Positions 22,466 through 45,266 of a stretch of DNA of 64,000 nucleotides are shown here, in pieces; position 1 is the first letter of the stretch, and each line of letters opens with the position of its first letter. The position numbers and the translations under genes were made by a program. The DNA comes from a bacterium (GTDB lineage: Bacteria > Orphanbacterota > Orphanbacteria > Orphanbacterales > Orphanbacteraceae). A model generated the notes under the pieces. That model had not been told where the DNA came from. It worked only from the letters and a program-made list of their open reading frames with translations, and did not search any database. The stretch lies in the NCBI GenBank assembly GCA_025782575.1, contig JALGYY010000035.1, forward strand, positions 535,541 to 599,540, in the 5' to 3' direction.

Positions 22466-25400
22466 ATGGAACCTAGTTGGGATGAAGACCAGTACCTATT
22501 GCTCATCTACCGAGACGAGATGGCAGACAGAACAATCGCTGCCTCCCCTCTCACATCACCCAGCAAGACTATAGCCCTACATCGTTGGTCCGCTAACCCG
22601 GGACGGAACCCAGAGGATTTCGGTCTAAGCATAAAGGACCTACAAGAAGAGAGTAGAGCATCTGATCCGGTCCGACCAGGCCAAGACTCTCTCTTCAGTA
22701 ATCTGAGCACTGGGGACTGGGTCGGAATTGATGGTCGACTAGGAATCGAGAAAGATCTTCGCCCTATTCCCCTAGGCTGTTCTGTGTGGGGATGGTGGCG
22801 CAAACCGTGGGAGGTGAATACGAGCCTTCTCACGCGATTGAAAGCGGTAACTCGGCATTTGAGACCTAAGGTGCTGCTTTACAATCAATATGTGCATCGA
22901 TTGTATCATGCCACACTAGTGGACCTGTATTTCAGTGAAACTCTCACCTCTGTAGTTTGCCCGCCTCAATGGCTTGTTTCTTGCCCCCAATACTACCGAA
23001 GGACGCCGCATCTGTGCGGAGCATTCTTTGTTCTGAAGATCGAGGAATCTGAAGCTGATGCAAAGATCCTTGGAGCAGATTTCTATATTGACTCTGCCAC
23101 TTTTGGGGTCTCGCACGATAGTCACGTGATTCCGACTCCAAGTGATATTGGCCAGGCGATTCCAGCGATCATTGATCGCAATCCCAATAGGATAAATCTC
23201 CGCACGGTGGAGCGAACAATACTTGTCGTCCGTTCGTATCCGCAGAAGGAAAAGACCGCCAGCCTACTAAGGGAGGACGTCGAAGATGTACAAGAGGATC
23301 TCCCCAAGGCTCTTGGGGAGACTAAGTGGCCTGATGTCTTAAGTGTACTGCGTAGCGCCTCGCCATCTGCCTGGCGGAAGCTTGCCACCAATCAGGAGGC
23401 AATCAAGACTCTGGGCGAGCGCGCACAGATTGAGGGTTCACGGTTGACACGCCTTGACTTCTGGCTATTTGCGAGCGCTGTGACATCGCCTCATCTTCGC
23501 CCGATTCTTGAGACCTCCGGTAGAGACGATTTCACGGGATTGGGAGTCGCCCTAAGATGCTGGGTGACTGAAGATGACGAAGAACGAGGGCGAGTAACTG
23601 CAGCTAAAGTTTTTGCCGAGGCATGGGGCATGGCTCAAGGCCGATACAATCTCGCCGAGCTTCCGAATGGCTACTTCGAGAGATTGCCCGCTGTTGAGGC
23701 GATTGCGGCCGCTGTAAAGCATGATATCGGGAAGAAGTTCTATCGTGATCACCTTAGCCATAACGTGCGTGCCGCCCTGCTGAGCGCAAGGTTAATCGAG
23801 GAACGTTCGATAGATCTGGGCGAAGAAGTGAATGGTGCACTGATTGGGTTTCTTTCTGGCCTCTTGCATGATCTTGCTCTCCCACTCACGACATTCCCCA
23901 AAACTGTTAGCAGCCTTGCAGAAGCACTTCGCGAGGCACAGCATCAACCCGAAAATAGCCAGCAGAGTATTCAGCCACACGTATTACTTCTTGATCAGGA
24001 GATCCTAAGACGAAGCCTTAGCTACGTTGCTCTGCTCGCGTCAGTGCAGAATGTTCCTCATTCTATAGAAGCCAGTACACTCCGGCCTTGGGAAGACAGA
24101 TCAGGCGCTCTGCAATTGACAGATGCAGGAGTCCTGATTGATGAGCTTCTTTGTGCCATCTCGGGGGACCACGCTTTGATTAGTGCCGCCCTCATATTCG
24201 ACTACGCGGTCCATGGCGCGAAGGAGCATGGCGACTTTGACAGTGGGGTCAAGACGCTTTTTCCGAGGATGACGGGTTCCGATTCAACTCCCGAGGGACG
24301 AGAGCTAGCCTGCATCCTTCAGTGCATAGCACTGCATGATAGGCGAGCTGCTGCTGAACACCATGGGGTTTTGGATGTGCCAACCACAACACCGCAACCT
24401 ATTAGCATTCAGGACTTCACACTGCCATCTATTGTCGCGATTGCTGATGAGCTACAGGAGTGGGGGCGGTCACTGGGTAAGCCACACGAGATTGGAGCGA
24501 TTGATGCCGATATTCGTATCAGCGAATCTAGCGTACGTGCCATATTTACCATGTCTAATCGCGCAGCAACATTCGAGTCCGTGCGCTTTTGCTTGTTGGA
24601 GTATCTTCTGGGGAAATTCAAGACCATTGGGCGAATTAGGATAACTAGCGCGTTCGATGCTGTGCTATCCTTGACCCTCAAAGTCACAAATCTGACTGCT
24701 TTCCACCTGGTGTACGTATGTAACGGAATGAACAGCACGATTAAGTACAAGAGACCCGTGGAGCAATTGGATTTTTCCACATGGCCGAAAGGAGGTAATC
24801 TTCAACGGGAGGTAACAGGATCCAACGTGTCACACCTCGTTGCATTTCAGCGAGGCAGTAGGGCCGATGACAAGCGTGACTTCCTGAATATCAGCGGGGA
24901 TGGTGCATATGTTGAGGAATTCGTGAAATGGGCGCGCATGAACACCCCCCTCGAGTCCCTCTCCATTGAGGCAGGGAAGGTGGTGATCCGTCTCAAAGGC
25001 GGCTACAAAGTGTGGGGCAAGCCCCTAGCTTACAGATTCGGAAAGGTAAGTGCTTCCAGTATCCCAGCTACAGTATTCCCTCCATCCGGTAGGATCGGGC
25101 ACATAGAGTTATCACTTCAAGGCGACAACAGCAGTGAAGAAGAGATGCAGGGTCCTCCAGCTATTGACCCGCAGAAAACCCCACACCCGCATTTCCTAGA
25201 TTTCGATTGGCGTTTTACATCACAGACGGCAGTAGCTTTGGTAGATGCTGCAAGACACCATGCGAACGGGAACATGATCGGCTATCTCGGGTGCCCGACC
25301 TTAGCACTCTGGCATGCCCGGAGGTATCCTGAAGAAGAAAACTGGCTTCTCCTAGACCGTGGTCACTTTTCATTAGCAGAGTGGCTCGATAACCAAATAC

Positions 25401-26125
25401 CCAGATCACAATACGAACCACTCGATGTCTTCAATGATATTCCTACGAAGCTGCTTGGAAGGTTCTCTCTCGTACTAACAGACCCACCATGGTACGATCC
25501 TCACTATGAATCGTTTTGGCGAACCGCATACGCTCTACTAACCCCCAAGGGCGTCCTAGGCGTTAGTCATTATCCACGATCGCTGGATGAGCGGAAATTC
25601 GAATGGTTCAGGCTAAAACTGGCGAGGAGCGCGGCTAGAGCCATGCGAGAGTTCGGAGCGATAGAAATCGACTACGATATTCCCGAATTCGAATCCGCTG
25701 CCAATGGGCTGCATCGCAAATTCATGCATCCAGCACTGGGTGTTTACCGCCCTGGGTTCATGGACTTCTATCGAATGCCTGATGAGAAACTTTCATGGGA
25801 GGACAAGCCAAGGAGACCTCTGCGCTTGGATCCAGCGAGCGTTCTAACCCACAGCATTTCACTTGACGAAGGCCATCATTTGAGGTGTCGTCCCGTGAGT
25901 CAGCTGACGAATCAATTCCCACTTGAAGTCGAAGCCGTGCGTAGAGGTATCAAAAGATTAACTAGATTACCCGATGCATGGATCGCGTGGTCGTCCCGCA
26001 ACCTGATCGTACGAAAAGCTGCTACTACCAGGGAGGGCGACCGTCTGGAGTCACTTTCTGATCTGGCCAAGTTTGTTATAGAGAAGGAACAGCCGAACGC
26101 CGATATTCACACATTGCCAGAGTAG
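22466..26125 (+). CDS. 1219-aa protein with HD-like region and DPPW methyltransferase domain
   Basis: Three parts can be seen. Residues 1 to about 400 are unrecognised, with several tryptophans and cysteines. From about 415 to 720 a helical region has an HD-phosphohydrolase-like series of histidines and aspartates: DHLSHNVRAALLSARL, GLLHDLALPL, IFDYAVHG, QCIALHD and SIVAIADELQEWG. From about 910 to 1130 there is a Rossmann-type methyltransferase with GYLGCPTLALW (motif I-like), WLLLDRG (acidic loop) and LTDPPWYDP (motif IV, as in N6-adenine or N4-cytosine methyltransferases). No signal or membrane segment is visible. A hairpin follows the stop. Codon use looks less G+C-rich than in the core genes, which suggests acquisition. 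I know no named family with this architecture; a defence or nucleic-acid modification role is inferred. Confidence 0.7.
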   Translation: MEPSWDEDQYLLLIYRDEMADRTIAASPLTSPSKTIALHRWSANPGRNPEDFGLSIKDLQEESRASDPVRPGQDSLFSNLSTGDWVGIDGRLGIEKDLRPIPLGCSVWGWWRKPWEVNTSLLTRLKAVTRHLRPKVLLYNQYVHRLYHATLVDLYFSETLTSVVCPPQWLVSCPQYYRRTPHLCGAFFVLKIEESEADAKILGADFYIDSATFGVSHDSHVIPTPSDIGQAIPAIIDRNPNRINLRTVERTILVVRSYPQKEKTASLLREDVEDVQEDLPKALGETKWPDVLSVLRSASPSAWRKLATNQEAIKTLGERAQIEGSRLTRLDFWLFASAVTSPHLRPILETSGRDDFTGLGVALRCWVTEDDEERGRVTAAKVFAEAWGMAQGRYNLAELPNGYFERLPAVEAIAAAVKHDIGKKFYRDHLSHNVRAALLSARLIEERSIDLGEEVNGALIGFLSGLLHDLALPLTTFPKTVSSLAEALREAQHQPENSQQSIQPHVLLLDQEILRRSLSYVALLASVQNVPHSIEASTLRPWEDRSGALQLTDAGVLIDELLCAISGDHALISAALIFDYAVHGAKEHGDFDSGVKTLFPRMTGSDSTPEGRELACILQCIALHDRRAAAEHHGVLDVPTTTPQPISIQDFTLPSIVAIADELQEWGRSLGKPHEIGAIDADIRISESSVRAIFTMSNRAATFESVRFCLLEYLLGKFKTIGRIRITSAFDAVLSLTLKVTNLTAFHLVYVCNGMNSTIKYKRPVEQLDFSTWPKGGNLQREVTGSNVSHLVAFQRGSRADDKRDFLNISGDGAYVEEFVKWARMNTPLESLSIEAGKVVIRLKGGYKVWGKPLAYRFGKVSASSIPATVFPPSGRIGHIELSLQGDNSSEEEMQGPPAIDPQKTPHPHFLDFDWRFTSQTAVALVDAARHHANGNMIGYLGCPTLALWHARRYPEEENWLLLDRGHFSLAEWLDNQIPRSQYEPLDVFNDIPTKLLGRFSLVLTDPPWYDPHYESFWRTAYALLTPKGVLGVSHYPRSLDERKFEWFRLKLARSAARAMREFGAIEIDYDIPEFESAANGLHRKFMHPALGVYRPGFMDFYRMPDEKLSWEDKPRRPLRLDPASVLTHSISLDEGHHLRCRPVSQLTNQFPLEVEAVRRGIKRLTRLPDAWIAWSSRNLIVRKAATTREGDRLESLSDLAKFVIEKEQPNADIHTLPE

Positions 26126-27323: not shown

Positions 27324-27387
27324 CATGGAGTTCCCCTGGAATCGTGGACACCTCAAGGTCTAAACTGGTACCTGGAGGAGGATCCCC

Positions 27388-27669
27388 ATGGGACAACGAT
27401 ATTCCCCGGAATTCAAGGATGAGGCTGTCCGGCAAGTACTCGACAGAGGCTATTCGGTGGCCGAGGTTGCAGGGCGGCTCGGCCTATCGGCGCACAGCCT
27501 CTACAAGTGGGTGAAGGCGGTAAAGCCTGATAAGAACGAGAAGCAAGCTGACGAGCTTCTGGAGTCGAAGCGGGAGAATATGAGACTTCGTGCGGAACTC
27601 CGGCGGGTTCAGGAAGAGCGCGACATCCTAAGAAAAGCCGCCGCGTACTTTGCCAGAGAGCACGAGTGA
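27388..27669 (+). CDS. IS3-family transposase OrfA
   Basis: The 93-residue protein contains an HTH (FKDEAVRQVLDRGYSVAEVA, then GLSAHSLYKWVK) and a C-terminal leucine-zipper-like coil (ENMRLRAELRRVQEERDIL) ending in KKAAYFA-like sequence (KAAAYFAREHE), as in the IS51/IS3 groups. AGGAGG precedes the ATG. It overlaps orfB by four bases, where a programmed -1 shift would normally make the fused transposase. Confidence 0.9.
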   Translation: MGQRYSPEFKDEAVRQVLDRGYSVAEVAGRLGLSAHSLYKWVKAVKPDKNEKQADELLESKRENMRLRAELRRVQEERDILRKAAAYFAREHE

Positions 27670-28527
27670 AGTACGCGTTCATCGACGCGCATCGATTCGA
27701 ACATTCGATTCAATTGATGTGCCGGGTTTTGCGCGTGGCACGAAGCGGTTTCTATGCCTGGCTCAGGAGGCCGATCTCAGATCGGGAACTCGCGAACAAG
27801 CATTTACTCGAACCGATTCGCCAATCGCACGCGGCGAGTGGTGGCGTGTACGGAAGTCCGCGCGTTTACGCTGACCTTCGTGAGGCAGGTGAGACGTGCA
27901 GTAAGAATCGCGTGGCGCGCTTGATGCGTTTGCACAAGATCCGTGGGGTCCGTGGCTACAAGCGGCCGCGTTATACTAATGGCCGACCCACAGCAATCGC
28001 TCCGAATCGGCTCGGCCGCAAGTTCACGGTTGAAGCGCCGAATCAAGTGTGGGTGACCGATATCACGTACATCCGAACGTGGCAGGGCTGGCTGTATCTC
28101 GCAACGGTCATGGATCTTTTTTCGCGCAAGATCGTCGGATGGTCGATGAAGCCGACGCTCAAGCGTGCGTTCGCACTCGATGCAATTCTGATGGCCGTGT
28201 GGCGACGGAGACCGAAGACGCAGGTGCTCGTGCATTCGGACCAGGGATCGCAGTACGGCAGCGACGATTGGTTCCGGTTCTGTCGCGAGCACAACCAGAA
28301 GCCGAGCATGAGCCGTCGTGGCAATGCTGGGACAATGCACCGGCGGAGTCGTTCTTCAGTTCGCTCAAGAAGGAACGAATCCGAAAGAGATATATCGGAC
28401 AAGAAACGAAGCGCGTGCCGATGTGTTCGATTACATCGAGATGTTCTACAATAAAGTGCGGAGGCACAGCCATCTCGGAGACGTGAGTCCGGAGGCTTTC
28501 GAGCTCGCCTCACAAACGACCCGATGA
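27666..28527 (+). pseudogene. IS3-family transposase OrfB, broken by two frameshifts
   Basis: The first 215 residues are normal integrase-type DDE transposase: an HTH_21-like region (GVYGSPRVYADLREAG), then WVTDITYIRT (first D) and LVHSDQGSQYGSDD (second D). At about 28,321 the frame moves so that NAPAESFFSSLKKE, carrying the catalytic glutamate, is read in the next frame, and at about 28,385 it moves again to YRTRNEARADVFDYIEMFYN. Both shifts disable the enzyme. Confidence 0.88.
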
Positions 28528-28646
28528 GTGTCCATAAGAGCGGGGGAACTCCACTAACTTAACTCAACCGTCCGCTGAAACGGGGTAGAACCCTTCCTCA
28601 CCATGAGCAACCTAAACTCACGAGGCCAAATGTCAAGCCTTGGGCT

Positions 28647-31600
28647 CTATGGCTCGATGTGCTTATAGACTGGCCCGTTGCTGCCAATAGACCGAAACTC
28701 GTAGAATCCCGCCCTGGGTTCCAAGGTGCCAAACTTTTGTCTCATAATACGGTAGAGCCGTTCATCGCATGTGGAGATGATGAACTGGCGGCGAACACTA
28801 CTGTGGCTCATTAGCAGGCCACGGATAAGCTCAACAAATGCGTAAGCGTTCAGGTCGTCGAAGTGCGTGACCGGGTCATCGAGGAGGACAGGGGTGAAAG
28901 ACGACCAGGTCTGAGTTGAGGCAATCGCCAGGAACAGGCTTAACATCAGTACCTGCTCCTGAGATTCGCTGAAATAGTTCGTTGGGAGGAATTCTTTCCC
29001 TCCCTTGGTAACCAGGGCACGAAGATTGCCCTCGGAAGACTGTATACGTACTTTACCAAAGCCGTAAACAGGACGAAGTCGCTGCTGCAATACCGATACC
29101 ATCGGACCGAGATTTGTGGTGTACGCATCTACCGCATCGGAGCGCGTCTGATTCAGTGACGAACCGATCTCCCTGAAGTATTTACGCCACCGACGGCAAT
29201 GGGAGAGCTTGTCATGGAAGTCTCGCAACTCGTTGTCTCGCACTTGTTGCTCTTTCTCGAGGGACGACAACTCGGACAATTGTGCGGCTATCTTGAGCAT
29301 CTGCTCTAGTGCGTTGAGTTCGCTTTCGACCGACTCACAAACCTCAAGTCTCTTCATGGCGTCATCGCGAGAATCGCCAATCTGCTCCAGGGTCGGCTCT
29401 GCTGGTAGACTACATTTGACGATGATTGAATTGTACCGTATCAGGTGTTCCTTTATCGCTGTTTCTTGCTGTTCCAGATCGGCTTGCTCAGACTGAGACC
29501 GCAGCAGAGACTCGCCTAGTTCGCCGCCCTTGCTACCTTGGTCCTTGAGTTTTGCTTGGATTTCCTTTGCTTGTTTCTCGACATGTGAGAGCGTCTCGTC
29601 CAATGCGGTGACTCTTGTTGCCACCTCCATCGCGTCGGCCGGCAACAGGAGATCTTGTCTCTTGGCTTCATCCCTCAGGCTCTGGATTTCCTGCCGGGTC
29701 TGGGCGAGCTGCTCTTCTGTGCCTCCAATTGAAGAAACCAATGTGGCCAAGGACAGCTCGGACGAGCTTAGTGTGTGTTGCATGGCATCAAGCTTGCGCT
29801 GTAAACCTGTGGCCTTCGCCTCAAGTAACTGGATCTCCTGCTCTTCCTCGCGCATCCTTAGTTGCGCCGCATCGCCAAGTTGGCTGGGGTCGGTTGGGAG
29901 ATTCAGCGCTCGTACCCGGCCCTCAAACTCAGCCAAAAGAGCTTGTAGTTTGTCTCTCTCTTCCCTCGCAGCCCGGCCTTCGAGTCCCAACTGCCTTGCC
30001 TCTTCGGCGAGGACATGCTCGCGCTCAGCCAGTGCCGCGATTTCCTGCTTGATGCGTTCTTCCCTCTCCGCGGCCGCCTTTTGTTCCACAGGCACTGCTG
30101 CGCTTCGCGCTGTGATTGCGTCAAGTAATCTATCCCGCGTGCCCAGATCCGACCCGCAGGTGGGACACGTAGCGTCACTGATAAACTCAGTTAGTTGACC
30201 AAGGAGAGCCGCCAGTTTTGCGTGGGAGGATGAAATCTCCCGCGACTTCTTCTCGGCCTCCTTGGCAACCAAGTGAGTGGCGTTAAGCTGATCCGATAAA
30301 GACCGATGTTGGTTAGCATTTTCTTCGATGCGGCGCTCCAACTCACGAAGCATGGTCTCGCTCCTAGCCAGCTCTATTCGCCACCGCATCCACCCAGTCA
30401 TCATCTCGACCACATCACGAATCGTGGCCCAGCGGGTCCGAGCTTGGCTCAGAAATTCGGCATTCGTTCCGAGTCCTTCTTGGATCTCGAGGCGGGCACG
30501 GGTGGTTTCGGACAAAGACTTGCGGGTATCATCCAGCCGGGCTCTTTCAGCCTGGAGAGCCGATGTCAGCTGAATCGCACTCGTTTCCATCGCTGTTACC
30601 CGTCCAGTGACGTTCGCTAGCCAAACCAACCCTTCCCGCTCCTTTCGGGACCGCTCGATTCTAGCCAGTATTTCGTCGTATCGTTGACGCAGTTCGGCCT
30701 CGCCCTTTGTTAGGTCTTTCCGGTCTCGGCTGAGAGTCGAAATCTGAGCACGAACGGCCGCCACATGCTCTTGTATCCCCGGCAGCGTCGACTTCATGAC
30801 AAGGGCGCCAGGAAGTTCGGATTCGAGTTGATTGAGTTCGCCAACCAGTGCCCGCAAGCGCGTATCCGCACCCGCTGCTTCCGTTCGCCATTCGCGAATA
30901 TGCTCATCGGACACCGTATCTGGTATTCGAATCTTCACGCCTGCGGCTGTTCTGACTTTTTGCACGATCGTCTGGACAGTTTTCTGTATCGCTTCTGGCG
31001 CTTCTGCACCATTCAGACTTGCGCGAATTATCTCTCGCCTCTTCCTCAGCAGATCGGCATCCTCGTTAAACTGTCTACGCTTCCCGGACAGTTCTTCCTC
31101 GCGCATCTGGATGACCCTGGCAACTTGGCCAGCCTTGCGGCTTCCGCGTACGTAGTCCTCAAGCGCCAACATTCTAGCCACGATGTCCGGCTCAAGTTGC
31201 GAGGTATTCCGGAACTTGGTTAGAAGCGCCTGGTAGTCTTGGCCAAAAAGGTGGCACGAGCGGAATAGACGTTCAAGGTTCTCCACACGCTCGGTTGCCT
31301 CTGAGTCCTGACCACAACCAAGCCATTTTAGGAGTCTCTTCCGATCAAAGCGTGCGCCGTCAACGTCTGCCTTGTCCCATCTTTCCGTGGTCCGCGTCAC
31401 CGTGGTGTGTTTGTCGGTACTATCAGAGACGGTCATGCGGACTTCTGCTTCCGCTGTCGCATCTAGGTGCTGGATAAGGTCCACCGGGCTCGGACCTGGG
31501 CCAAACTGCGCAGTGAACCGCCCCAGCCTGCCCGTGCAGACGAAGTCGATAGCATCGAACAATGACGTCTTCCCAAGACCGTTCGGGCCATATAAGACCG

Positions 31601-32315
31601 TCACGTCCGCACTCAGGTCGAACTGGTGGTGCCCCCTATAGGCACGGAATTCGCTGACATCCAACGAATCGATTCGTTTACCGGCAACCGGGATGGTAAT
31701 TTCCTCGGGCTGCGCCCGTTCGCGCGTCTTGGTGGACTCCAGCGTAATTGGATCCTTACTGAGACAAGAGCTAGCAATGCCCTGATCAGAGGACCTTATC
31801 GACACCAGCTTGTCGGCCAGATCTGGCTCTACACCAGAAGCACGTAGCAGGTCTTGCGCGGCCCGAGGTCTCCCTAAGCTGACGGTACCTTGCCTATCAA
31901 GCGGGATGAACGGCAAGCGAAGAAGCCGTTGTTGCAGGCGATCAGGATCGTTGTCGGCTTCAATGACGAACTTCCGGCAAAAGTAAGTGTTGACCTCGAC
32001 TGAGTTCCAGAACGCCATGTCCTCGTCTCTCATCGCAACCGGACAACAAACGAAAGACAGCGTACGCGATTCCCACTCATCGACGTGAATACGGTACAAA
32101 TCCTTGAATGTCCCGTAGAGCTGTTCGTATGTCGCCCTCGGCTCTTTCTGCCCGGCCACAACGAACCCAGCCACGTCCAACTCGCCAGTCACAAGTAGCA
32201 GCCCCGGGTCTGGTTCCGCAAGGCGATTCATGTGCCACCCAATGCTAATAAGACTGCCGCCGAGGCACGCTTCTAGAGTCTTGTAGTAAGTTGCGAGTCC
32301 CTCAGAGGAGTTCAT
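28647..32315 (-). CDS. Rad50/SMC-like ATPase with zinc hook, partner of a nitrilase-fold protein
   Basis: The protein of about 1222 residues has an N-terminal extension (about 1-215) that is not part of normal Rad50 proteins and includes LYRIHVDEWESRTLSFVCCP. The ATPase head follows (LDVSEFRAYRGHHQFDL, Walker A GPNGLGKTS near residue 240), then two long coiled coils separated by a zinc hook, CPTCG near residue 714, and the C-terminal head with Walker B and D-loop LLDDPVTHFDD near 1141. The start at 32315 has AGAGG upstream and overlaps the preceding gene by 14 bp; a longer frame to 32429 would run through that gene. It probably senses or clamps DNA ends and controls the co-encoded nitrilase-like effector. 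The partnership is inferred from the overlap. Confidence 0.82.
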   Translation of the reverse strand: MNSSEGLATYYKTLEACLGGSLISIGWHMNRLAEPDPGLLLVTGELDVAGFVVAGQKEPRATYEQLYGTFKDLYRIHVDEWESRTLSFVCCPVAMRDEDMAFWNSVEVNTYFCRKFVIEADNDPDRLQQRLLRLPFIPLDRQGTVSLGRPRAAQDLLRASGVEPDLADKLVSIRSSDQGIASSCLSKDPITLESTKTRERAQPEEITIPVAGKRIDSLDVSEFRAYRGHHQFDLSADVTVLYGPNGLGKTSLFDAIDFVCTGRLGRFTAQFGPGPSPVDLIQHLDATAEAEVRMTVSDSTDKHTTVTRTTERWDKADVDGARFDRKRLLKWLGCGQDSEATERVENLERLFRSCHLFGQDYQALLTKFRNTSQLEPDIVARMLALEDYVRGSRKAGQVARVIQMREEELSGKRRQFNEDADLLRKRREIIRASLNGAEAPEAIQKTVQTIVQKVRTAAGVKIRIPDTVSDEHIREWRTEAAGADTRLRALVGELNQLESELPGALVMKSTLPGIQEHVAAVRAQISTLSRDRKDLTKGEAELRQRYDEILARIERSRKEREGLVWLANVTGRVTAMETSAIQLTSALQAERARLDDTRKSLSETTRARLEIQEGLGTNAEFLSQARTRWATIRDVVEMMTGWMRWRIELARSETMLRELERRIEENANQHRSLSDQLNATHLVAKEAEKKSREISSSHAKLAALLGQLTEFISDATCPTCGSDLGTRDRLLDAITARSAAVPVEQKAAAEREERIKQEIAALAEREHVLAEEARQLGLEGRAAREERDKLQALLAEFEGRVRALNLPTDPSQLGDAAQLRMREEEQEIQLLEAKATGLQRKLDAMQHTLSSSELSLATLVSSIGGTEEQLAQTRQEIQSLRDEAKRQDLLLPADAMEVATRVTALDETLSHVEKQAKEIQAKLKDQGSKGGELGESLLRSQSEQADLEQQETAIKEHLIRYNSIIVKCSLPAEPTLEQIGDSRDDAMKRLEVCESVESELNALEQMLKIAAQLSELSSLEKEQQVRDNELRDFHDKLSHCRRWRKYFREIGSSLNQTRSDAVDAYTTNLGPMVSVLQQRLRPVYGFGKVRIQSSEGNLRALVTKGGKEFLPTNYFSESQEQVLMLSLFLAIASTQTWSSFTPVLLDDPVTHFDDLNAYAFVELIRGLLMSHSSVRRQFIISTCDERLYRIMRQKFGTLEPRAGFYEFRSIGSNGPVYKHIEP

Positions 32316-34125
32316 ATAGCCTCTTCTCAATATCGGATTCGATATCCCCGTTGATGAACCAGTCGAGAACCTGCTGATAGCCCACATGCTTGATGTGGGT
32401 TTCGGGATCGGTGAATGTGATACCCTCACTTCGCACGCTGGAGCCAGGGACGTCCGTGATTTTGCTCACTGTGCGCTCGCAGACCGGGGTATTGTCCTTG
32501 TCGCGAGTGACCAGGAACACGGGGTGATTCGGAATTGGCTCACGATTTAACCTAAAATGCTCTTTGCAGTCGATGTGCGAATGACCGCAAATCACTACTA
32601 TGTCAAATGGCTTGCCGAGCACCTCTCCACGCCCATGATTGCTGCCTTCAGATGCTGACAAAGTGCCGCCAACTGCAACTATCGTGCTTGCGTGGACGAC
32701 ACACGTTAGCGCATTTTCTTCCTGCATCGCCCAATCATCGGGAACGATGTTCCTGTGGTGATCTTCCTCCTTCATCAGCACGCAAGTAGCCATCAGCACG
32801 CGCTTCTCAACGCTTCCACATTCAATATCGCACCAACTCAACATGACTTCTCGTTGTTTTACCTCTGCTGTGGACTTTAGTGGCGCCTCCGGATACTGCT
32901 CGGCGAGAGAGCCTGTTACGTCAAGACAATCATGGAGCCACTTGACACCTGCCGGCACTGGTTGACCAGGTGTTCTCGCATCGCTATCAGATCCCAGGGG
33001 GTGGACGGCAGGATTGTCCACAGGTGGCTTTCTGCCGGCTGCATCATGGCGAGCGAATTTGGGGACCCTGACCTGCATGGAGTGGATACAGGGTCCCATC
33101 TCACGAAAGACCGCATCCTGGCATCGCTTAAGAATGTCGGACTGGCGCAAATGCTCTGCCCTGTAACACACTGTCGCTGGTCTGTCGCTATCACAGTCGA
33201 ATGTGTTCGGGTGGAAGACGAGGGCCGAGAAACCAAAGCTATCTCGGTGCGCCCGTCGGAATTCACTGGCGCTATTTGAGTGAACAACCACTGCGTCACG
33301 GCGTTCCACGAATGAGTACTTCCCAGAGTGGAAGAATTCGCTCGTCGCATTGAGAAATAGAGGGTTGCAGGGTTTCTTGTTGAACTGTGGCACGAAGACC
33401 CAATGAATGGGTCTCGGATCTGGTTTCCAGATTTCATCGATTCGCTCCAGAACACCGTCCAGTGCAGAGACTCCCCCATCCACTCCGATCCAGTCAAAAC
33501 AGATGAGACAAAGAAACCGGCATGGATAGCCGTCCAATCCGTATTCTGCGCGGAAGATATATACACCCTGACCGGTCCGCATGCACAGACATCGGACTTG
33601 TTGCTCCTGCCGTGCCCGCGTGAGCTTGGGTTGGACGAACACCCGGACGTGGCCCGAGGCTTCTTTCACCCAAACGACGCAGCAATTCACCCACTCGGCG
33701 GCCGATAGGTCTTTTGGTTCGCTGCCTGGGAGGGGGTCCTCCGGCCTTAGCCGCTCCCAGACTGAGCTATATTGTTCGCAGTCCAAGCCGTCAACGCCCG
33801 CGATCACAATGCTGTTCGTTTGCCATAAATCCTGGCGGATAGCAGCATCTACGATTTCCAAGCCACTCAAGCCGGGAAGCGAGTACTCAGGGAAGATCGT
33901 AAATTGTGCCTGTCTATCTAAGGCAACCTCAAGAGTCTGTCGCACAGCATCGCGTTGGATTCCCACACTCTCGGCCGGCCAGCAGTAAGGCTCCAGGTTG
34001 TCAAAACCCTTGATCAGCGGTTGCATGAGCACAATCGGGATGGAAGCCTGGGGGAAGGTCACCCCCAACGATACTTCCTTCACATCAATTCCATTGTTCA
34101 TAGTGCTAATCTCAGCTAGTGACAC
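32302..34125 (-). CDS. Nitrilase-superfamily (carbon-nitrogen hydrolase) protein, predicted defence effector
   Basis: The 607-residue protein has an N-terminal carbon-nitrogen hydrolase domain with the catalytic triad visible: Glu80 in FTIFPEYSLPG, Lys167 in VFVQPKLTRARQEQ and Cys209 in LCLICFDWIG. Spacing between the three fits the family. The C-terminal half (about residues 330-607) is not recognised; it includes DIVVICGHSHIDC and a charged helical end. Start choices are GTG at 34125 or ATG at 34101; neither has a strong ribosome-binding site. The SMC-like ATPase gene follows with a 14-bp overlap. Nitrilases cut or form amide and nitrile bonds; here the substrate is unknown and could be a metabolite such as NAD-type or amide cofactors, which is speculation. 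Confidence 0.75.
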   Translation of the reverse strand: MSLAEISTMNNGIDVKEVSLGVTFPQASIPIVLMQPLIKGFDNLEPYCWPAESVGIQRDAVRQTLEVALDRQAQFTIFPEYSLPGLSGLEIVDAAIRQDLWQTNSIVIAGVDGLDCEQYSSVWERLRPEDPLPGSEPKDLSAAEWVNCCVVWVKEASGHVRVFVQPKLTRARQEQQVRCLCMRTGQGVYIFRAEYGLDGYPCRFLCLICFDWIGVDGGVSALDGVLERIDEIWKPDPRPIHWVFVPQFNKKPCNPLFLNATSEFFHSGKYSFVERRDAVVVHSNSASEFRRAHRDSFGFSALVFHPNTFDCDSDRPATVCYRAEHLRQSDILKRCQDAVFREMGPCIHSMQVRVPKFARHDAAGRKPPVDNPAVHPLGSDSDARTPGQPVPAGVKWLHDCLDVTGSLAEQYPEAPLKSTAEVKQREVMLSWCDIECGSVEKRVLMATCVLMKEEDHHRNIVPDDWAMQEENALTCVVHASTIVAVGGTLSASEGSNHGRGEVLGKPFDIVVICGHSHIDCKEHFRLNREPIPNHPVFLVTRDKDNTPVCERTVSKITDVPGSSVRSEGITFTDPETHIKHVGYQQVLDWFINGDIESDIEKRLYELL

Positions 34126-34531: not shown

Positions 34532-34783
34532 TCACGTACGTTCCTGCAGCCAATCGACTATTCGAGCATAGTTACGGAGGTCGAGGCGCCACTGATGTCT
34601 CGTAGATTCCATCCTTTTAGCCTCTTTTGTGAAGTCGCTTGTGGTGGCGATCATCCCAAGCGTGCTTTGATACTCCTGATCTACCCAATACATGAGGCTA
34701 CGGACGACCCCTATCCCGACCGGTCGATCGGGCCGATACTTTTTGCACTCGACCACCAGCTTTATGGGCTTTCCTTTGATCAG
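34532..34783 (-). pseudogene. Mrr-type restriction endonuclease, 3' fragment cut by an IS
   Basis: Eighty-three residues remain of a PD-(D/E)XK restriction-like domain of the Mrr_cat type: KLVVECKKYRPDRPVGIGVV (the E-x-K catalytic part) and LGMIATTSDFTKEAKR (the typical TTS-F strand). Similarity ends precisely at the IS boundary at 34784. The upstream catalytic aspartate and the rest of the protein are missing, so the fragment should be inactive. Confidence 0.75.
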
Positions 34784-34862
34784 TGACCTGACCCCCTGAA
34801 ACCGGTCCGGATCGTAAGTTAGGATTTTGATACGATCGGGCCAAATGAAAAGGGGTGTTAAT

Positions 34863-35141
34863 ATGCCTAGAAAGCGATATTCGGCTGAGCAGATCATCGG
34901 AAAGCTGCGGGAATCCGAAATCATGCAGACGAAGGGGCTGACGATCTCGGACATCTGTCGGGAGCTTGGTGTGAGCGAGCAGACCTATTATCGGTGGCGA
35001 CGTGAGTTCGGGGGCCTCGGAGTTGACCAGGCCAAGCGCCTGAAACAACTGGAGGGAGAGAACAAGCAACTGCGCAAGCTGGTTGCCGACCAAGCGCTCG
35101 ACATGGCGATCCTGAAAGAGGCCGCCTCGGGAAACTTTTAG
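34863..35141 (+). CDS. IS3-family transposase OrfA (IS407 group)
   Basis: The 92-residue protein begins MPRKRYSAEQIIGKLRESE and has an HTH (ISDICRELGVSEQTYYRWRR), then a leucine-zipper coil and the group-typical end LDMAILKEAASGNF. AAGGGG lies nine bases upstream of the ATG. The stop region AACTTTTAG is a plausible slippage site for making OrfAB. Confidence 0.92.
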   Translation: MPRKRYSAEQIIGKLRESEIMQTKGLTISDICRELGVSEQTYYRWRREFGGLGVDQAKRLKQLEGENKQLRKLVADQALDMAILKEAASGNF

Positions 35142-35161
35142 GCCCGACGCGCCGTCGCCAG

Positions 35162-36031
35162 GTGGTGGATCATGTCCGCCGGGAGCTGGCAGTGACGGAA
35201 CGTCGGGCTTGTCGGGTGCTTGGGCAGGCTCGGTCAACCCAACGCCGCCGACCAAAAATCGCGGCCGACGAGGAGCGGCTGACGGAGTCGATCGTTGGTC
35301 TCGCGCGCGAGTACGGGCGGTATGGGTATCGCCGAGTTACCGCGCTGCTCCGGCATGCCGGCTGGCGAGTGAACCACAAGCGAGTGGAGCGGATCTGGCG
35401 GCAGGAGGGTCTTCGGGTGCCGAAAAAACAACCGAAGCGCGGGAGGCTCTGGCTGAATGACGGATCATGCGTCCGGAAAAGAGCGGAGCATGCGAATCAC
35501 GTGTGGTCCTACGACTTCGTGATGGATCGTACCCGTGACGGCCGCGCGATCCGCATGCTGACGATCGTGGACGAGTATACGCGTGAGTGTCTGGCCATCG
35601 ACGTAGGACGGAGGTTGAATTCGGAGAATGTGCTTGCTCGGCTTGCGGATCTCTTTGTGCACCGGGGAACACCGCGATACATCCGGTCAGACAACGGACC
35701 GGAGTTCACGGCAAAGCGGGTGCGAGAATGGCTCTCACGGGTGCAGGTGAACACGCTGTTTATTGAACCGGGAAGCCCTTGGGAGAACGGTTATGTGGAG
35801 TCGTTCAACGGAAAGCTCCGAGACGAGCTCTTGAACCGGGAGATCTTCTACACGCTGATCGAGGCCCAGGTGTTAATCGGAAGATGGAGAAGATTATACA
35901 ATCACTTCCGGCCGCACAGTGCCCTGGGGTACAGACCGCCGGCACCGGAAGCGATCGATCCAGCTGTCAGGAAGATCACTTCCAGCGAAGTGGGAGAATG
36001 GAAGAAACTAACACAGGAAGTGGTACAGTAA
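35162..36031 (+). CDS. IS3-family transposase OrfB, DDE type
   Basis: The 289-residue catalytic part contains the HTH_21 region (YGRYGYRRVTALLRHAG), the first aspartate in VWSYDFVMD, the second in IRSDNGPEF and the glutamate in WENGYVESFNGKLRDE, ending HSALGYRPPAPEA. It is normally made as a fusion with OrfA by -1 frameshifting. No stop or shift interrupts it, so the copy may be active. Confidence 0.92.
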   Translation: MVDHVRRELAVTERRACRVLGQARSTQRRRPKIAADEERLTESIVGLAREYGRYGYRRVTALLRHAGWRVNHKRVERIWRQEGLRVPKKQPKRGRLWLNDGSCVRKRAEHANHVWSYDFVMDRTRDGRAIRMLTIVDEYTRECLAIDVGRRLNSENVLARLADLFVHRGTPRYIRSDNGPEFTAKRVREWLSRVQVNTLFIEPGSPWENGYVESFNGKLRDELLNREIFYTLIEAQVLIGRWRRLYNHFRPHSALGYRPPAPEAIDPAVRKITSSEVGEWKKLTQEVVQ

Positions 36032-39004: not shown

Positions 39005-40465
39005 CTAGGATTCACGAGGCAACATTTCTTCCTGAAACGAGAAAGGACGGTGGAGGTCGCAGAAGAGGCGCTTCCCCCCGAGCGAAAACGTCCCAATAGT
39101 GGACAACACCATGCGGGTTTTCGTGTGGTCCTCATGTTGTAAGACCCGATGAATCCTCTCTGCGAGGGAGTCCGCGCTATCCACAGAGGGATGGTCGTTT
39201 TCCTCCTTCGGCGGAGCGCTCTCGGCCTGCCCGCTGAGTCGCCCGATGTCCTCCTGTAGAGTGGCTCTACGTTTTTCGTGTTCTCGAGCGTCGATCAGAC
39301 CACGAACGCTGAGATCCGCTAATCGACGAAGCTGCATAATACTCTCCTCGAGAGCTTTCCTCGCAGACGCCCGGGCCACCTCATCGATGCTCCGATCCTC
39401 CCTCCTCTTTCGGACCTGCTGCTGAGCCCATTTCTCGAGTTTTGGTGGTACTGTAACCCGATTCACGTACTCATGAATCTGTCGTTCAATTTCCGCGGCC
39501 GGCACGTACTTGCCCGGGCATCGAGTCGCGCCTTTCTTTGTGCAGTGATAGTAGACATAGCTCCGGCCGCTCGGTTTCACTATTTCGCTGGCCGTAACCG
39601 AGCAACCACATTCTCGGCAGGTCATGAGTTGCGTATAGGGAAACGAATGCTTTTTTGAAACTCGACGTCGCTTTCCGCCAAGTACTTCCTGCACTCGCTC
39701 GTACTGGCCCCGGGAGATCATTGGGGTGTGAGCACCGGCGTAGAGTTGTCCCGAGAACTCAATGACACCGTAGTAGAAGCGGGACTTCAGAATCCGGTAG
39801 AGACCGGATCGGGAAAGAGGGGAATTTCCCATGCGAGGAGTTTGTGGGGTTCGGAAGCCCCACTGCTCATTTACCACTCGGAGAAGTTTTGGTATTGGTG
39901 TCCCGGAAGCAGCAAGCTCCCAGATCTTTCGGACGAGGAGAAACCGCTCCGGATCGGGAGTGATCCGTTTGAGCGCCCGATCGTTCAGGTACCCGAGTGG
40001 CGCCTTTCTCGGTAACCACCCCCGTTCGACTTTGGCCCTTAGACCCCTCTTCACGTCCTCGGCGAGGTCGTCGACGTACTTCTTCGCCATACCAAACTCG
40101 AGCTGCATCCAGAACTTGTCGTTCCCCGAGTTTTCGTATGTCCGCTGGGGTGTGACTATTCTTTGAAGCCTCCTCTCTTCCAAGGACCAGATCACAGCCC
40201 CGCCGTCTACGGGGTTGCGGGCTAGGCGGTCGAGTTTCCAGCAGAGGATCCCGTCTGCCTTGCCAGCGGAGATCTCCTTCAGCATAGCTTGGAAGACTTC
40301 TCTTCCGGGAGCTCGGGCAGATTCTGATTCGGAGAGAATCCTGGAGACCGTGAAACCGCGATCTTGGGCAAGACTGAGTAATTCTTTGATTTGAGAAGCG
40401 ATAGAGAGGATCTGATGATCATCGCTCTCCGTAGATCTCCGGGCGTAGAGAATGTAGTCGGTCAT
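39005..40465 (-). CDS. Large serine recombinase 1 (CBASS cassette)
   Basis: The 486-residue protein has an N-terminal resolvase catalytic domain (YILYARRSTESDDHQ with the nucleophilic serine; GILCWKLDRLARNP), a recombinase domain (GWLPRKAPLGYLND), a zinc ribbon (CRECGCSV ... YHCTKKGATRCPG) and a C-terminal coiled coil (about residues 360-440). It would cut and rejoin DNA at attachment sites. It overlaps a 58-codon gene upstream by four bases. Unlike recombinase 2 it lacks the WYTTVDDV tail. It lies inside the 193-bp repeats with the CBASS operon and could move that cassette. Confidence 0.92.
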   Translation of the reverse strand: MTDYILYARRSTESDDHQILSIASQIKELLSLAQDRGFTVSRILSESESARAPGREVFQAMLKEISAGKADGILCWKLDRLARNPVDGGAVIWSLEERRLQRIVTPQRTYENSGNDKFWMQLEFGMAKKYVDDLAEDVKRGLRAKVERGWLPRKAPLGYLNDRALKRITPDPERFLLVRKIWELAASGTPIPKLLRVVNEQWGFRTPQTPRMGNSPLSRSGLYRILKSRFYYGVIEFSGQLYAGAHTPMISRGQYERVQEVLGGKRRRVSKKHSFPYTQLMTCRECGCSVTASEIVKPSGRSYVYYHCTKKGATRCPGKYVPAAEIERQIHEYVNRVTVPPKLEKWAQQQVRKRREDRSIDEVARASARKALEESIMQLRRLADLSVRGLIDAREHEKRRATLQEDIGRLSGQAESAPPKEENDHPSVDSADSLAERIHRVLQHEDHTKTRMVLSTIGTFSLGGKRLFCDLHRPFSFQEEMLPRES

Positions 40466-40707: not shown

Positions 40708-41382
40708 ATGGATACGATATCGTCTATGTCAGACCAGCCTCAGCTAACCCCCCGGGAGCACAAGGCGTTACGCATCATCCGTGATTCAATCATGCACGGT
40801 AGAAATGGCATCTCGATCAGGAAACTCCAAAGGATTATGGGCTATCAATCTCCCAGAACGGCGGCCGTCATCATCGAGAGATTGTGCGCCAAGGGTTTTA
40901 CGGTTCGGCGATCCGACGGCTCATTGAAGATCCTGGCGGAACCGATTCGTGATCGGTTGATGGAGGAGACGGTCATGGTTCCGATCATGGGCACCGCACC
41001 ATGCGGATCACCGTTCTTCGTGGAAGAAAATGTCGATGCCATGATTCCAATCTCAACTCAGATCGCGAAGCCTCCCCATCGACACTTCCTACTTCGTACA
41101 GTCGGGGACTCGATGGAACTCGCAGGTATTCGGGAGGGGGGTCTCGTGCTAGTACGGCAGCAGGAGTACGCAAGTGATGGCGATAGCGTCGTCGCCCTAG
41201 TAGACGGTGAAGTGACCATCAAGGAGTTTCGCCGCCTATCGAACGGAATTCTCTTGAGGCCTCGAAGTCGCGATCCCAAGAAACATCAACCTATGATGCT
41301 AACTCACGACCTTAGAATTCAGGGCATTGTGGTTGCTACCATTTCATCCGAAGATGCCGAATTGTTTTACCCTGAAACCTAA
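40708..41382 (+). CDS. LexA-like self-cleaving repressor leading the CBASS operon
   Basis: The 224-residue protein has an N-terminal winged helix (LTPREHKALRIIRDSI, SIRKLQRIMGYQSPRTAAVI) and an S24 peptidase domain with a cleavage region APCGSPFFVEE (Cys-Gly in place of Ala-Gly), the serine in GDSMELAGI and the lysine in ALVDGEVTIKEF. It differs clearly from the LexA at 37532. The CD-NTase gene starts 20 bp downstream. By analogy with the transcriptional repressors of other CBASS operons (CapH/CapP, CapW), it should keep the system silent until DNA damage or infection. The match to LexA mechanics is from the motifs; the link to CBASS control is inference. Confidence 0.85.
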   Translation: MDTISSMSDQPQLTPREHKALRIIRDSIMHGRNGISIRKLQRIMGYQSPRTAAVIIERLCAKGFTVRRSDGSLKILAEPIRDRLMEETVMVPIMGTAPCGSPFFVEENVDAMIPISTQIAKPPHRHFLLRTVGDSMELAGIREGGLVLVRQQEYASDGDSVVALVDGEVTIKEFRRLSNGILLRPRSRDPKKHQPMMLTHDLRIQGIVVATISSEDAELFYPET

Positions 41383-41402
41383 TTGCACGCTGAGGAACCA
41401 CA

Positions 41403-42374
41403 ATGCCCAATCCAATCATTACACATACTGATATCGCGGAATTCTCTGAGTCTCACGTCAACCTCCCGTCGGACCTAGCGACGCTATATCGAGAGCAGGT
41501 AAATAGGCTACGAAAGCGACTAGAAAAGCATATCGCAGAGAACCCCGGATTCGCCGTTGTAAAGATGTTGCATGCGGGAAGCGTTGCCAAGGGTACCGCA
41601 CTGCGCTCGATCAACGACCTCGACGTAGCCATCTATGTCTCGAAGGAGGCGACTCCAACACGAGAGGAGGATCTCGTTCCATGGATTGGACAGCGTCTTC
41701 GTGAGGCGTATTCAAAATTGAGTCCTGATCAAATCGACGACACACAGCCCCACTGTGTAACAATTCACTTTGAGAAACCGGACCTCGATATCGATGTAGT
41801 GCCCGTACTCTATGAAGGAGAGGCAAACGATATTGGCTACCTTGTGAGCCGACATACTGGAGAACGTATTCTTACAAGCATCCCGCTACACTTGGACTTC
41901 ATCCGGAAACGAAAAGGGGTCTGTCCTGTTGACTATGCTCAAATCGTTCGACTTCTAAAGTGGTGGGCTGTCCAACAGAAGGAGCTTGACCCTGAATTCA
42001 AATGCAAATCGTTTCTTCTTGAGCTCATCACTGCCCATTTGCTGGACGGGGGTGAGGAGTTATCGGACTACCCGGGAGCGCTTGATCATGTCTTCACCTA
42101 TATGGTCCGATCTGGCCTTGAAGAGCGTATAGCCTTCACTGACTATTATCCAAAGAGCAAGCTCCCGGGGCCGACGGGGAATGCAATAGAGATCTTTGAT
42201 CCTGTAAACCCCGAAAATAACATTACGGACAAATACGAGACCGAGGATCGGGAGCGCCTTGTTTTTGCGGCCGAAAAGGCCGCCGATGCCATCTCGGAAG
42301 CAAGGTACTCCACCACAAAGTCACGGGCCGTCGAACGTTGGCAAGAAGTGCTTGGCCCAAGCTTCAGAGGATAA
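41403..42374 (+). CDS. cdnC: CBASS cyclic oligonucleotide synthase (CD-NTase)
   Basis: The 323-residue protein is a cGAS/DncV-like nucleotidyltransferase. The catalytic motif is AGSVAKGTALRSINDLDVAIY (GS followed by DxD), with the third acidic residue in LDIDVVPVL. The C-terminal helical region (about 180-300) completes the fold, and the length is typical. Upon infection such enzymes make cyclic di- or trinucleotides. The following HORMA and TRIP13 genes place it in a type III CBASS. It looks closest to clade C enzymes, but the clade and product are not certain. The HORMA gene starts 6 bp downstream. Confidence 0.9.
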   Translation: MPNPIITHTDIAEFSESHVNLPSDLATLYREQVNRLRKRLEKHIAENPGFAVVKMLHAGSVAKGTALRSINDLDVAIYVSKEATPTREEDLVPWIGQRLREAYSKLSPDQIDDTQPHCVTIHFEKPDLDIDVVPVLYEGEANDIGYLVSRHTGERILTSIPLHLDFIRKRKGVCPVDYAQIVRLLKWWAVQQKELDPEFKCKSFLLELITAHLLDGGEELSDYPGALDHVFTYMVRSGLEERIAFTDYYPKSKLPGPTGNAIEIFDPVNPENNITDKYETEDRERLVFAAEKAADAISEARYSTTKSRAVERWQEVLGPSFRG

Positions 42375-42380
42375 CATCTC

Positions 42381-42887
42381 ATGACGTATACATTCACACA
42401 AACCAGCACCTTCACTCGTACCAGCGCCCGTTACCTTGCTTCGAAGGTGGCAACTGACCTCTACCGGCTCAATCGACTGTACGGAAGGCCGTCCGAGCCT
42501 CACATTGATAACTATAATGATGAGCTTGTTGAACTCTTGCTTGGAAACTATGTTCAATCGGTTGAGTATGGATTCAAGCGCCAAGAATATAGAATTCTGA
42601 CCCTTTCCTACGAGGTTCAGACTGACGGGTCGCTGTCCGATAGCGATGCTGGAGGCATATATGCTCGCGCCTCGGACGTCCGGAGTGCTTCGTGGTTTTC
42701 CTATATGACGTATAGCGCAGCATGGTATCTTCTTTCGCACTACCAGCGTGCGTCAATTCAAGAACAGCTTCCTTTTCAACGCTCTGACTCTTTGGCGCCT
42801 CGAGATGGCAACGGATATTGGACTGCTGACCGCGGATACTCGACGGACGGAACCATTCTGTCGCGACAGACTTTTAGACCATACTAA
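42381..42887 (+). CDS. cap7: CBASS HORMA-domain activator (Cap7)
   Basis: The 168-residue protein fits the bacterial HORMA family: FTRTSARYLASKVATDLYRL at the start, DSDAGGIYARASDVRSASWF in the middle, and the C-terminal closure region with WTADRGYSTDGT and LSRQTFRPY. HORMA proteins bind a peptide, close, and then activate the adjacent CD-NTase. Its position between the synthase and the TRIP13-like ATPase, with gaps of 6 and 2 bp, is the usual type III order. Only one HORMA gene is present. Confidence 0.9.
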   Translation: MTYTFTQTSTFTRTSARYLASKVATDLYRLNRLYGRPSEPHIDNYNDELVELLLGNYVQSVEYGFKRQEYRILTLSYEVQTDGSLSDSDAGGIYARASDVRSASWFSYMTYSAAWYLLSHYQRASIQEQLPFQRSDSLAPRDGNGYWTADRGYSTDGTILSRQTFRPY

Positions 42888-42889
42888 TT

Positions 42890-43831
42890 ATGAACTCTAT
42901 TAACCCACAACTATTTGATGCCGTGCTCGAACTTCCAGATCCTACCCGCCAGCAACAATTTGACAGCCTTGTTGGCCTCGAATCCATCAAAGAAACCCTC
43001 GTCAAGGAGGGGACGGTTCTTCTAAACCCCACCCTCTTAGCTGACTGGAGCAATAAGTATCACAAGCAGGAACTTCCCTGCGTTCGTACCTTCAGGGAGC
43101 GCCCACCGCTAATCTTGTTCTCCGGAGATGTCGGCACAGGCAAAACCAGTCTCGCCGAGAGCTTTGGAGATGCTATTGCGCGCCGGGAGAAAATCAAGAT
43201 ACGCGTGCTTCGCATGAGCCTCTTTACGAGGGGTCGCGGCGCGGTCGGAGAGATGACTCGGTTGATTTCTCAAGCATTCTCCGAGGTCGAGCAGATTGCT
43301 TCTCGAGGCATTCGCAAAGGTCTGAAGCCTGCCTCTGGTGTCATCCTCATCATTGATGAAGCCGACGCACTAGCACAATCCAGATCAGAGGAGCAAATGC
43401 ATCATGAAGACCGCGCCGGCGTAAATGCCCTAATCCGTGGTATTGATATGCTGACCTCGGTCGATCTGCCCGTCATGGTCGTCATGTGCACCAATCGCGA
43501 TAACGCAATGGATCCAGCCATCCTTCGCCGAGTTGCAACGCACCATGTTTTTAATCGACCAACCGCCGAGCAAAGAGTCGCCGTTTTCAAAGGCGCGTTT
43601 GGGAAAGTGCTTTCTGGTGACGAACTTGCTCGCATCGGAAAGCTCACTGGTCGATCCAATGGCCGAGAATACGGATTTACTTACTCAGATCTTCTTCAGC
43701 GACTCGTGCCAGCAGTTGTCATGAGCGCATTCCCCGACCAGGCGATAACGCTGCCACTTGTTGAATCGGTGATTGAAAGGGAAGTCCCCACAGCCCCGTT
43801 TGACTCTTCCGGCAATCACAATGAGAAATAG
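42890..43831 (+). CDS. cap6: CBASS TRIP13-like AAA ATPase (Cap6)
   Basis: The 313-residue AAA+ ATPase has Walker A GDVGTGKTS, Walker B LIIDEADALA, sensor 1 VVMCTNRDN and an arginine finger in ILRRVATHHVF. It opens closed HORMA proteins and so switches off the CD-NTase. It starts 2 bp after the HORMA stop, and its own stop lies inside the beginning of the effector gene, so all four CBASS genes are translationally close. Confidence 0.92.
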   Translation: MNSINPQLFDAVLELPDPTRQQQFDSLVGLESIKETLVKEGTVLLNPTLLADWSNKYHKQELPCVRTFRERPPLILFSGDVGTGKTSLAESFGDAIARREKIKIRVLRMSLFTRGRGAVGEMTRLISQAFSEVEQIASRGIRKGLKPASGVILIIDEADALAQSRSEEQMHHEDRAGVNALIRGIDMLTSVDLPVMVVMCTNRDNAMDPAILRRVATHHVFNRPTAEQRVAVFKGAFGKVLSGDELARIGKLTGRSNGREYGFTYSDLLQRLVPAVVMSAFPDQAITLPLVESVIEREVPTAPFDSSGNHNEK

Positions 43832-45266
43832 AGCCCTGAGCGCTAGGGGGGCCAGTATTCGCGGTGATGACTATCAACATCTCTGGGGATGGATAAAGGC
43901 GCTAAAGGTCCTTACTCCAGGATCAATTGTTACTGAGATTGGTATCGAGGATCCGAGAGCTAACGGCGCAGATGATGTCACCGTATACTACGCTGACGGT
44001 CGGAATGAACTCTATCAATGCAAATCAGCCGTAGACGGCCGAAAGATGTTTAATGTCGATTGGTTGATTGAGGATGATGTCCTTCTTCGCCTATTTGATG
44101 TATGGAAAAAACATTCTGACAACCTGGATGGCCTCCAAATCGAACTTGTCACGAACAGACTTCCAGACACCAATGATCCTTTCTGTGACCTTCTCGACGG
44201 AAGAAGTCGAAAAGTTACCAACCTGCTCCATACTGACGGCCCTCGTTCTCGAATAGGGAAAGTCAGGAAGCGGCTAACAGACGGTCTTCGCACAACCGAT
44301 GCCGAACTTCGTGCCTTTCTTTCCCATGTTAGTTTTCGCATAGCCCTCTCCTTCGAGGATCTTGCTGAACGAGCGAGAGAGGAAATGGGGTATCGGGGGT
44401 TGCGTTCAGATCGCACCGACCTGGACCAGGGAATCGAACTAATCCGGAAATGGGTCACTTCCGGTAAACGCAACCTTTCGGCCCAAGAGGTTAGAGATGA
44501 GATTGGTACTCTTCAGCTGGAGCGAGAAGCCCCGTATACAACTCTTCTCATACAGGCACTTGATCGAGAACTCGCCCCTGGGGATGCCGACATTGTTTTT
44601 GATTGGGTAGATCTTTTCATCGGAGATGACCCGCGATCTCGTCGTTTGCTCCATGACAATAGTGACTGGAACTCTAGAATCCGCCCCGAAATTAAGAAGG
44701 CTGCAGATGTACTGAATCGCGAGTCTCACAGACGAGTTATTGTACGTGGATCCGCGCGTCTGCCACTATGGTTTACGGTTGGTGTGGAGTTCTCGCGAAC
44801 TGCGGGATTCGATATTGCCTCAATGCAAGGTGGGCAAATCTGGGGATCCACTGGTGGCGAAATCAACCAGATGCGCCTAAGTACTCATCACGAACAGCTT
44901 CGAGATGGGAATAGCATCGCGATCGGGCTATCGGTATCGACCGATCTCTCGGCTGATGTGCGCGAATATGTTGAGAATCACCTTCATGAAGTGGGTAGCG
45001 TATTCTTCCTTTCCCCAGAGAGGGGTCCAAGCAATGCCGCCATTCCTGATCCTAAAGCTGCTCGTGATCTGGCGTTCTCCGTTAGAGATCTCGTGCGAAC
45101 GATAACACGGGAGAAGAAACCGCATACTTTGCACCTCTTCATAGCTACACCCCGAGGTTTCTCCCTTCTCCTTGGGCATCTGTGGGATCGAATGCCACAC
45201 ACTCAACTGTACGAGGATCTTGGCTCTCCTGGTGGTTATGCGCCTTCTTTTTCGATTTCCAACTAA
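43821..45266 (+). CDS. cap4: CBASS effector Cap4-like: dsDNA nuclease plus SAVED domain
   Basis: The 481-residue protein has an N-terminal DUF4297-type PD-(D/E)XK nuclease (SIRGDDYQHLWGWIKAL; NGADDVTVYYADGRNELYQCK, with the catalytic D and QxK) and a C-terminal SAVED domain (FDIASMQGGQIWGSTGGE; THLFIATP-like LHLFIATPRGFSLLLGHLW). SAVED binds the cyclic oligonucleotide and triggers DNA degradation and cell death. The start at 43821 overlaps cap6 by 11 bp; an in-frame ATG at 43773 would overlap by 59 bp. It is the last gene of the operon. Confidence 0.9.
   Translation: MRNRALSARGASIRGDDYQHLWGWIKALKVLTPGSIVTEIGIEDPRANGADDVTVYYADGRNELYQCKSAVDGRKMFNVDWLIEDDVLLRLFDVWKKHSDNLDGLQIELVTNRLPDTNDPFCDLLDGRSRKVTNLLHTDGPRSRIGKVRKRLTDGLRTTDAELRAFLSHVSFRIALSFEDLAERAREEMGYRGLRSDRTDLDQGIELIRKWVTSGKRNLSAQEVRDEIGTLQLEREAPYTTLLIQALDRELAPGDADIVFDWVDLFIGDDPRSRRLLHDNSDWNSRIRPEIKKAADVLNRESHRRVIVRGSARLPLWFTVGVEFSRTAGFDIASMQGGQIWGSTGGEINQMRLSTHHEQLRDGNSIAIGLSVSTDLSADVREYVENHLHEVGSVFFLSPERGPSNAAIPDPKAARDLAFSVRDLVRTITREKKPHTLHLFIATPRGFSLLLGHLWDRMPHTQLYEDLGSPGGYAPSFSISN

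Follow-up and report, generated by a model that had tools for sequence, protein, structure and literature searches.

Lamassu (ABC-3C) systems act by abortive infection (PMC10586767). The SMC-like ATPase LmuB senses, LmuC and the C-terminal domain of LmuA provide the connection, and the enzyme at the N terminus of LmuA harms the cell (PMC10586767). LmuC is encoded by a separate gene in most Lamassu and is absent from some, and a zinc hook, CPxCG, is present in many, not all. The effector domains listed for LmuA in a 2023 review include "C-N hydrolase" (PMC10586767). In the literature searched, we found no paper that couples "Lamassu" with "nitrilase" and no experiment on a nitrilase-type Lamassu. 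In DdmABC, the Lamassu of Vibrio cholerae, the effector is a Cap4 nuclease, LmuC is separate, and LmuB (∼650 aa) carries a Glu-to-Gln substitution in Walker B. An operon on the Priestia aryabhattai plasmid NZ_CP024036.1, a three-component ABC-3C/Lamassu, is annotated as a hydrolase, an ABC-3C protein, a middle component 1, and an SMC ATPase. Nitrilase domains are also found in the anti-phage RT-nitrilase systems (UG1/UG5, DRT type I-like), in which the sensor is a reverse transcriptase (PMC9122126).

The two genes analyzed here lie on the minus strand at positions 28647 to 34125 of the window, the whole 64,000-nucleotide stretch of DNA under study (Table 1). Both frames are uninterrupted and complete, with exactly 14 nt (32302 to 32315) shared between them, which bears out the two-gene operon described in the first-pass annotation. 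The alignment of LmuA with its homologues begins at residue 9, an internal ATG at position 34101; the true LmuA is therefore probably the 599-aa product of that start codon. A search of PADLOC-DB matched the upstream product to LmuA (PDLC03850; E = 2e-195; residues 12 to 607 on model positions 4 to 603 of 604) and the downstream product to LmuB (PDLC03861; E = 0; residues 1 to 1220 on positions 1 to 1211 of 1213). The LmuB match runs end to end, so the N-terminal extension of this protein is included in the model. The architecture is that of the PADLOC-DB Lamassu throughout, with diverged sequence. Features of Lamassu found at the locus comprise the LmuB ATPase motifs, a CPTCG hook, an LmuA in the same operon with an N-terminal enzyme and a C-terminal region, and a middle component, here as a fusion (MComp1, LmuB residues 1 to 213, a weak match on its own). 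We consider it likely that the pair makes up a Lamassu (ABC-3C) directed against phages or plasmids, of the subtype with a C-N hydrolase effector and in a compact two-gene form.

The PADLOC matches agree with the original proposal that a nitrilase-fold effector and an SMC/Rad50-like protein form a defence pair, and they put Lamassu as the closest known system. The same proposal suggested that this would be a new or rare variant, the pairing not being known as a described system. Rarity stands; novelty does not, as profile searches of defence collections matched the pair at full length to a described system, the PADLOC Lamassu. Since the review lists C-N hydrolase among the LmuA effectors (PMC10586767), the pairing was already known, and it is a rare, already catalogued version of Lamassu. 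Compared with DdmABC, with which it shares an SMC-like LmuB, a middle component, an effector, and abortive-infection logic (PMC10586767), the pair has a nitrilase effector, a fused middle component, a 1222-aa LmuB, and the Walker B sequence LLDDP. The Priestia plasmid carries the best plasmid match to our LmuB and has middle component 1 and the zinc-hook SMC ATPase in common with the pair; its middle component is a separate gene, however, and its effector is an alpha/beta hydrolase accompanied by a separate 246-aa protein. No similarity was detectable between that 246-aa ABC-3C protein and the C-terminal region of LmuA. What the locus shares with the RT-nitrilase systems is the nitrilase domain, whereas its sensor is an SMC-like ATPase.

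Table 1. Features of the nitrilase-type Lamassu pair and of its surroundings (window coordinates).
Feature	Position	Strand	Remarks
LmuA, nitrilase-fold effector	32302..34125	-	607 aa from GTG; PADLOC LmuA PDLC03850
Nitrilase (C-N hydrolase) domain of LmuA	33196..34050	-	∼residues 26-310; inferred boundaries; hhalign to CN_hydrolase
E80 codon, catalytic Glu (FPEYS)	33886..33888	-	Invariant in 5 diverged LmuA
K167 codon, catalytic Lys (QPKLT)	33625..33627	-	Invariant in 5 diverged LmuA
C209 codon, catalytic Cys (LICFD)	33499..33501	-	Invariant in 5 diverged LmuA
LmuA C-terminal region, presumed docking domain to LmuB/LmuC	32302..33135	-	∼residues 331-607; docking inferred from PMC10586767
LmuB with fused middle component, Rad50/SMC-like ATPase	28647..32315	-	1222 aa, ATG start; PADLOC LmuB PDLC03861
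ABC-3C middle component 1 domain MComp1 (LmuC role)	31677..32315	-	LmuB residues 1-213; PF20289
Walker A GPNGLGKT	31566..31589	-	LmuB residues 243-250
Zinc hook CPTCG	30153..30167	-	Residues 717-721; C717, C720, G721 invariant in 5 LmuB
ABC signature FSESQ	28959..28973	-	LmuB residues 1115-1119
Walker B VLLDDP	28872..28889	-	Residues 1143-1148; first Asp and Pro invariant in LmuB alignment
IS3-type transposases either side of Lamassu pair	about 27326-28553 and 34827-36031		
CBASS operon	40708-45266		LexA/S24-like regulator, CD-NTase, bacHORMA_1, TRIP13 AAA, Cap4-like SAVED-PDDEXK endonuclease
Serine recombinases flanking CBASS	39005-40465 and 45517-47163		

Searches of the 607-aa LmuA against Pfam and NCBIfam returned no family at E ≤ 1, so its reading as a nitrilase required independent support. 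Neither LmuA alone nor a five-sequence profile retrieved a nitrilase in sequence searches of the PDB, and the C-terminal region gave no Pfam match. Five LmuA proteins were aligned (∼20% identity; 59% for one pair). The Glu-Lys-Cys triad noted in the first pass, E80, K167, and C209, is as stated and is unchanged, in that order, in all five, as are P79, S82, Q165, I208, and Q247-x-N249. Comparison by hhalign of the first 330 residues of the five proteins with CN_hydrolase proteins from a 15-genome search gave Prob 90.7 (E = 1.3e-6); in it, Glu and Cys superpose and Lys is off by no more than one or two residues. Controls gave a Prob of at most 0.3 for 40 column-shuffled alignments, 0.1 for the reversed alignment, and 0.2 for the C-terminal part; the signal was weaker with subsets (Prob 8 for the close pair only, 18 for three distant members only). 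An AlphaFold model of LmuA, for which a two-sequence alignment was the input, had a pLDDT of 31.6, a low confidence that is probably due to the shallow alignment, and the fold assignment therefore rests on motifs and profile comparison. These measures link the N-terminal domain of LmuA to the nitrilase (C-N hydrolase) superfamily. The C-terminal region is present in full-length relatives and missing from single-domain nitrilase relatives.

LmuB was identified by Pfam as an SMC-type ATPase (SMC_N, 7.9e-16; AAA_23, 1.5e-15), and each motif of the Rad50-like ATPase proposed earlier, Walker A, the CPTCG hook, and an LLDDP Walker B, could be located. The Glu-to-Gln substitution in Walker B, which the review gives, from work in Vibrio, as general for LmuB and which is no membership criterion (PMC10586767), is absent here, and the position is acidic in the relatives too. 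With LLDDP in place of the Gln-substituted form, LmuB may retain ATP hydrolysis.

The first-pass annotation reported an extra N-terminal domain of ∼215 residues in LmuB; the domain is there, but it is not an addition to the known components. A Pfam search with the whole protein gave a sub-threshold match to MComp1 ("ABC-three component system middle component 1") at residues 88 to 130, and the N-terminal 213 residues alone matched PF20289 at an E value of 2.4e-4, under the Pfam cut-off. This is the sole MComp1 match in the host genome. An MComp1-only search of 290 genomes gave three matches, our locus and genomes G007 and G058, the last of them above the Pfam cut-off; each of the three has the domain fused, at the equivalent place, to a Rad50-like ATPase, and the preceding gene encodes a nitrilase-like LmuA. 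The G058 pair was reached by this search alone, in which the nitrilase was not used. Two genomes of one genus (G815 and G819) have a nitrilase-LmuA gene followed by a gene of ∼180 residues and then by a 977-aa LmuB that lacks the extension. The ∼180-residue protein gave no match of its own in the profile libraries, so its reading as a putative middle component is based on its position and a short shared motif. From the profile matches and the recurrent fusion, we identify the N-terminal ∼213 residues of LmuB as the ABC-3C middle component MComp1, in the role of LmuC, fused to the ATPase.

In a Lentisphaerae metagenome-assembled genome (MAG), both genes recur with an identical 14-nt overlap (59% and 54% identity); the PADLOC scores there are 900 and 1643 bits, versus 649 and 1134 for our pair. 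As read from translations, the Lentisphaerae pair adjoins helicase and DNA-methyltransferase genes resembling a type III restriction system. The pairs of G007 and G058, genomes of other phyla, show ∼20% identity to ours; G007 has the same two-gene architecture. When we asked whether LmuA homologues occur without the ATPase, every full-length locus found had LmuB alongside (six of six: our own, L004, G007, G058, G815, and G819), and only single-domain relatives lacked it. LmuA was found in two of 386 sampled genomes (our own and G007) and in 2 of 195 genomes of another phylum, and a pattern search of species-level genome contigs found the one Lentisphaerae MAG; searches of plasmids, phages, and viral contigs found none. 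These counts are lower bounds, because the three-sequence profile used missed the divergent G058 pair. Nitrilase-type Lamassu is rare and sporadic in distribution.

Matches in G249, G376, and G241, and most of those in the phylum of G034, were rejected as LmuA; they are single-domain nitrilases with no LmuB match in the neighboring DNA. Those in G249, G376, and G241 have a NUDIX gene and genes of arginine biosynthesis nearby. We observed a nitrilase-like family of ∼390 aa that Pfam does not recognize (L013:7093-8265, L014:7749-8924, and L012 around 7977-8735), with the Glu-Lys-Cys residues visible in L013. In several genomes it adjoins a NUDIX gene and argG/argH-type genes, and it possibly accounts for an unnamed step connected to arginine biosynthesis.

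By analogy with other Lamassu types, a zinc-hook-joined dimer of LmuB, with its fused middle component, would keep LmuA inactive, and recognition by LmuB of foreign or abnormally replicating DNA would switch LmuA on. The nitrilase-fold enzyme probably then disables the infected cell. It probably acts on a C-N bond, of an amide or of another kind; the activated enzyme would use Glu-Lys-Cys to hydrolyze such a bond in a small molecule essential to the cell or in the side chain of a protein, and the cell would be halted (abortive infection). That the target is a specific essential metabolite, or a host protein that is deamidated, we propose only tentatively, as a possibility that falls short of probable. 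Acyl- and amide-transfer enzymes also belong to the nitrilase superfamily, which favors another account of the same complex, that the nitrilase is a transferase, or makes or destroys a signal molecule, and is not a hydrolase of an essential metabolite. A nitrilase domain is also fused to reverse transcriptases that act in defence (UG1/UG5, DRT type I-like), which fits this account as well (PMC9122126, PMC8934634). However, next to the pair we recognized no gene for a partner effector dependent on such a signal, in either the window or the relatives, and we regard a transferase or signal enzyme as rather unlikely.

The window is a defence island, and a complete CBASS operon (CD-NTase, PDLC00808, E = 6e-117) in the same island places the pair close to other defence genes, in support of the Lamassu reading. 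IS3-type transposases on both sides of the pair and a partial Mrr-like gene upstream of lmuA suggest island decay, and the Lamassu itself could be a decayed, non-working copy; both of its frames are complete, however, and every catalytic motif is intact, which makes this quite improbable. The IS3-type element downstream of lmuB has 26-nt imperfect inverted ends, and its integrase frame is apparently shifted near the 3′ end (a 262-aa frame, with its continuation in another frame). The Mrr-type endonuclease gene (34532 to 34954) lies just upstream of lmuA on the same strand, comprises the C-terminal half, and is probably truncated; its start overlaps the IS3-type element. A 1219-aa protein encoded at 22466 to 26125 has a PUA-like N terminus and a weak N6-adenine methyltransferase/mad2 match, and is perhaps a single-chain restriction-modification enzyme.

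A defence system that is entirely new and resembles Lamassu only through the shared SMC-like ATPase would account for a 607-aa protein without a Pfam or NCBIfam family and for the missing coupling of the two terms in the literature searched, but we rejected it as very improbable on the full-length PADLOC LmuA and LmuB matches, to which the MComp1 domain and the C-N hydrolase effector of the review (PMC10586767) add. Equally far-fetched is a chance neighborhood of a DNA-repair Rad50-like protein and an unrelated metabolic nitrilase: Rad50-like motifs are present and ATPase-free relatives do exist near arginine-biosynthesis genes, but the genes overlap, the pairing is conserved in distant genomes, the metabolic relatives are without the C-terminal LmuA region, and the distribution is sporadic, in a defence-island context.

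Taken as a Lamassu, the locus exemplifies a compact nitrilase form that is coherent across phyla and in which the "extra" domain is the fused middle component. At least two defence families with no relation to each other, Lamassu and the reverse transcriptases, make use of nitrilase domains. If the effector does hydrolyze an essential metabolite or deamidate a host protein, this would be a mode of shutdown without precedent among SMC-based defence in the literature searched, and its substrate would be new. A Lamassu of two proteins is also convenient for learning how an SMC-type sensor controls an effector that is not a nuclease.
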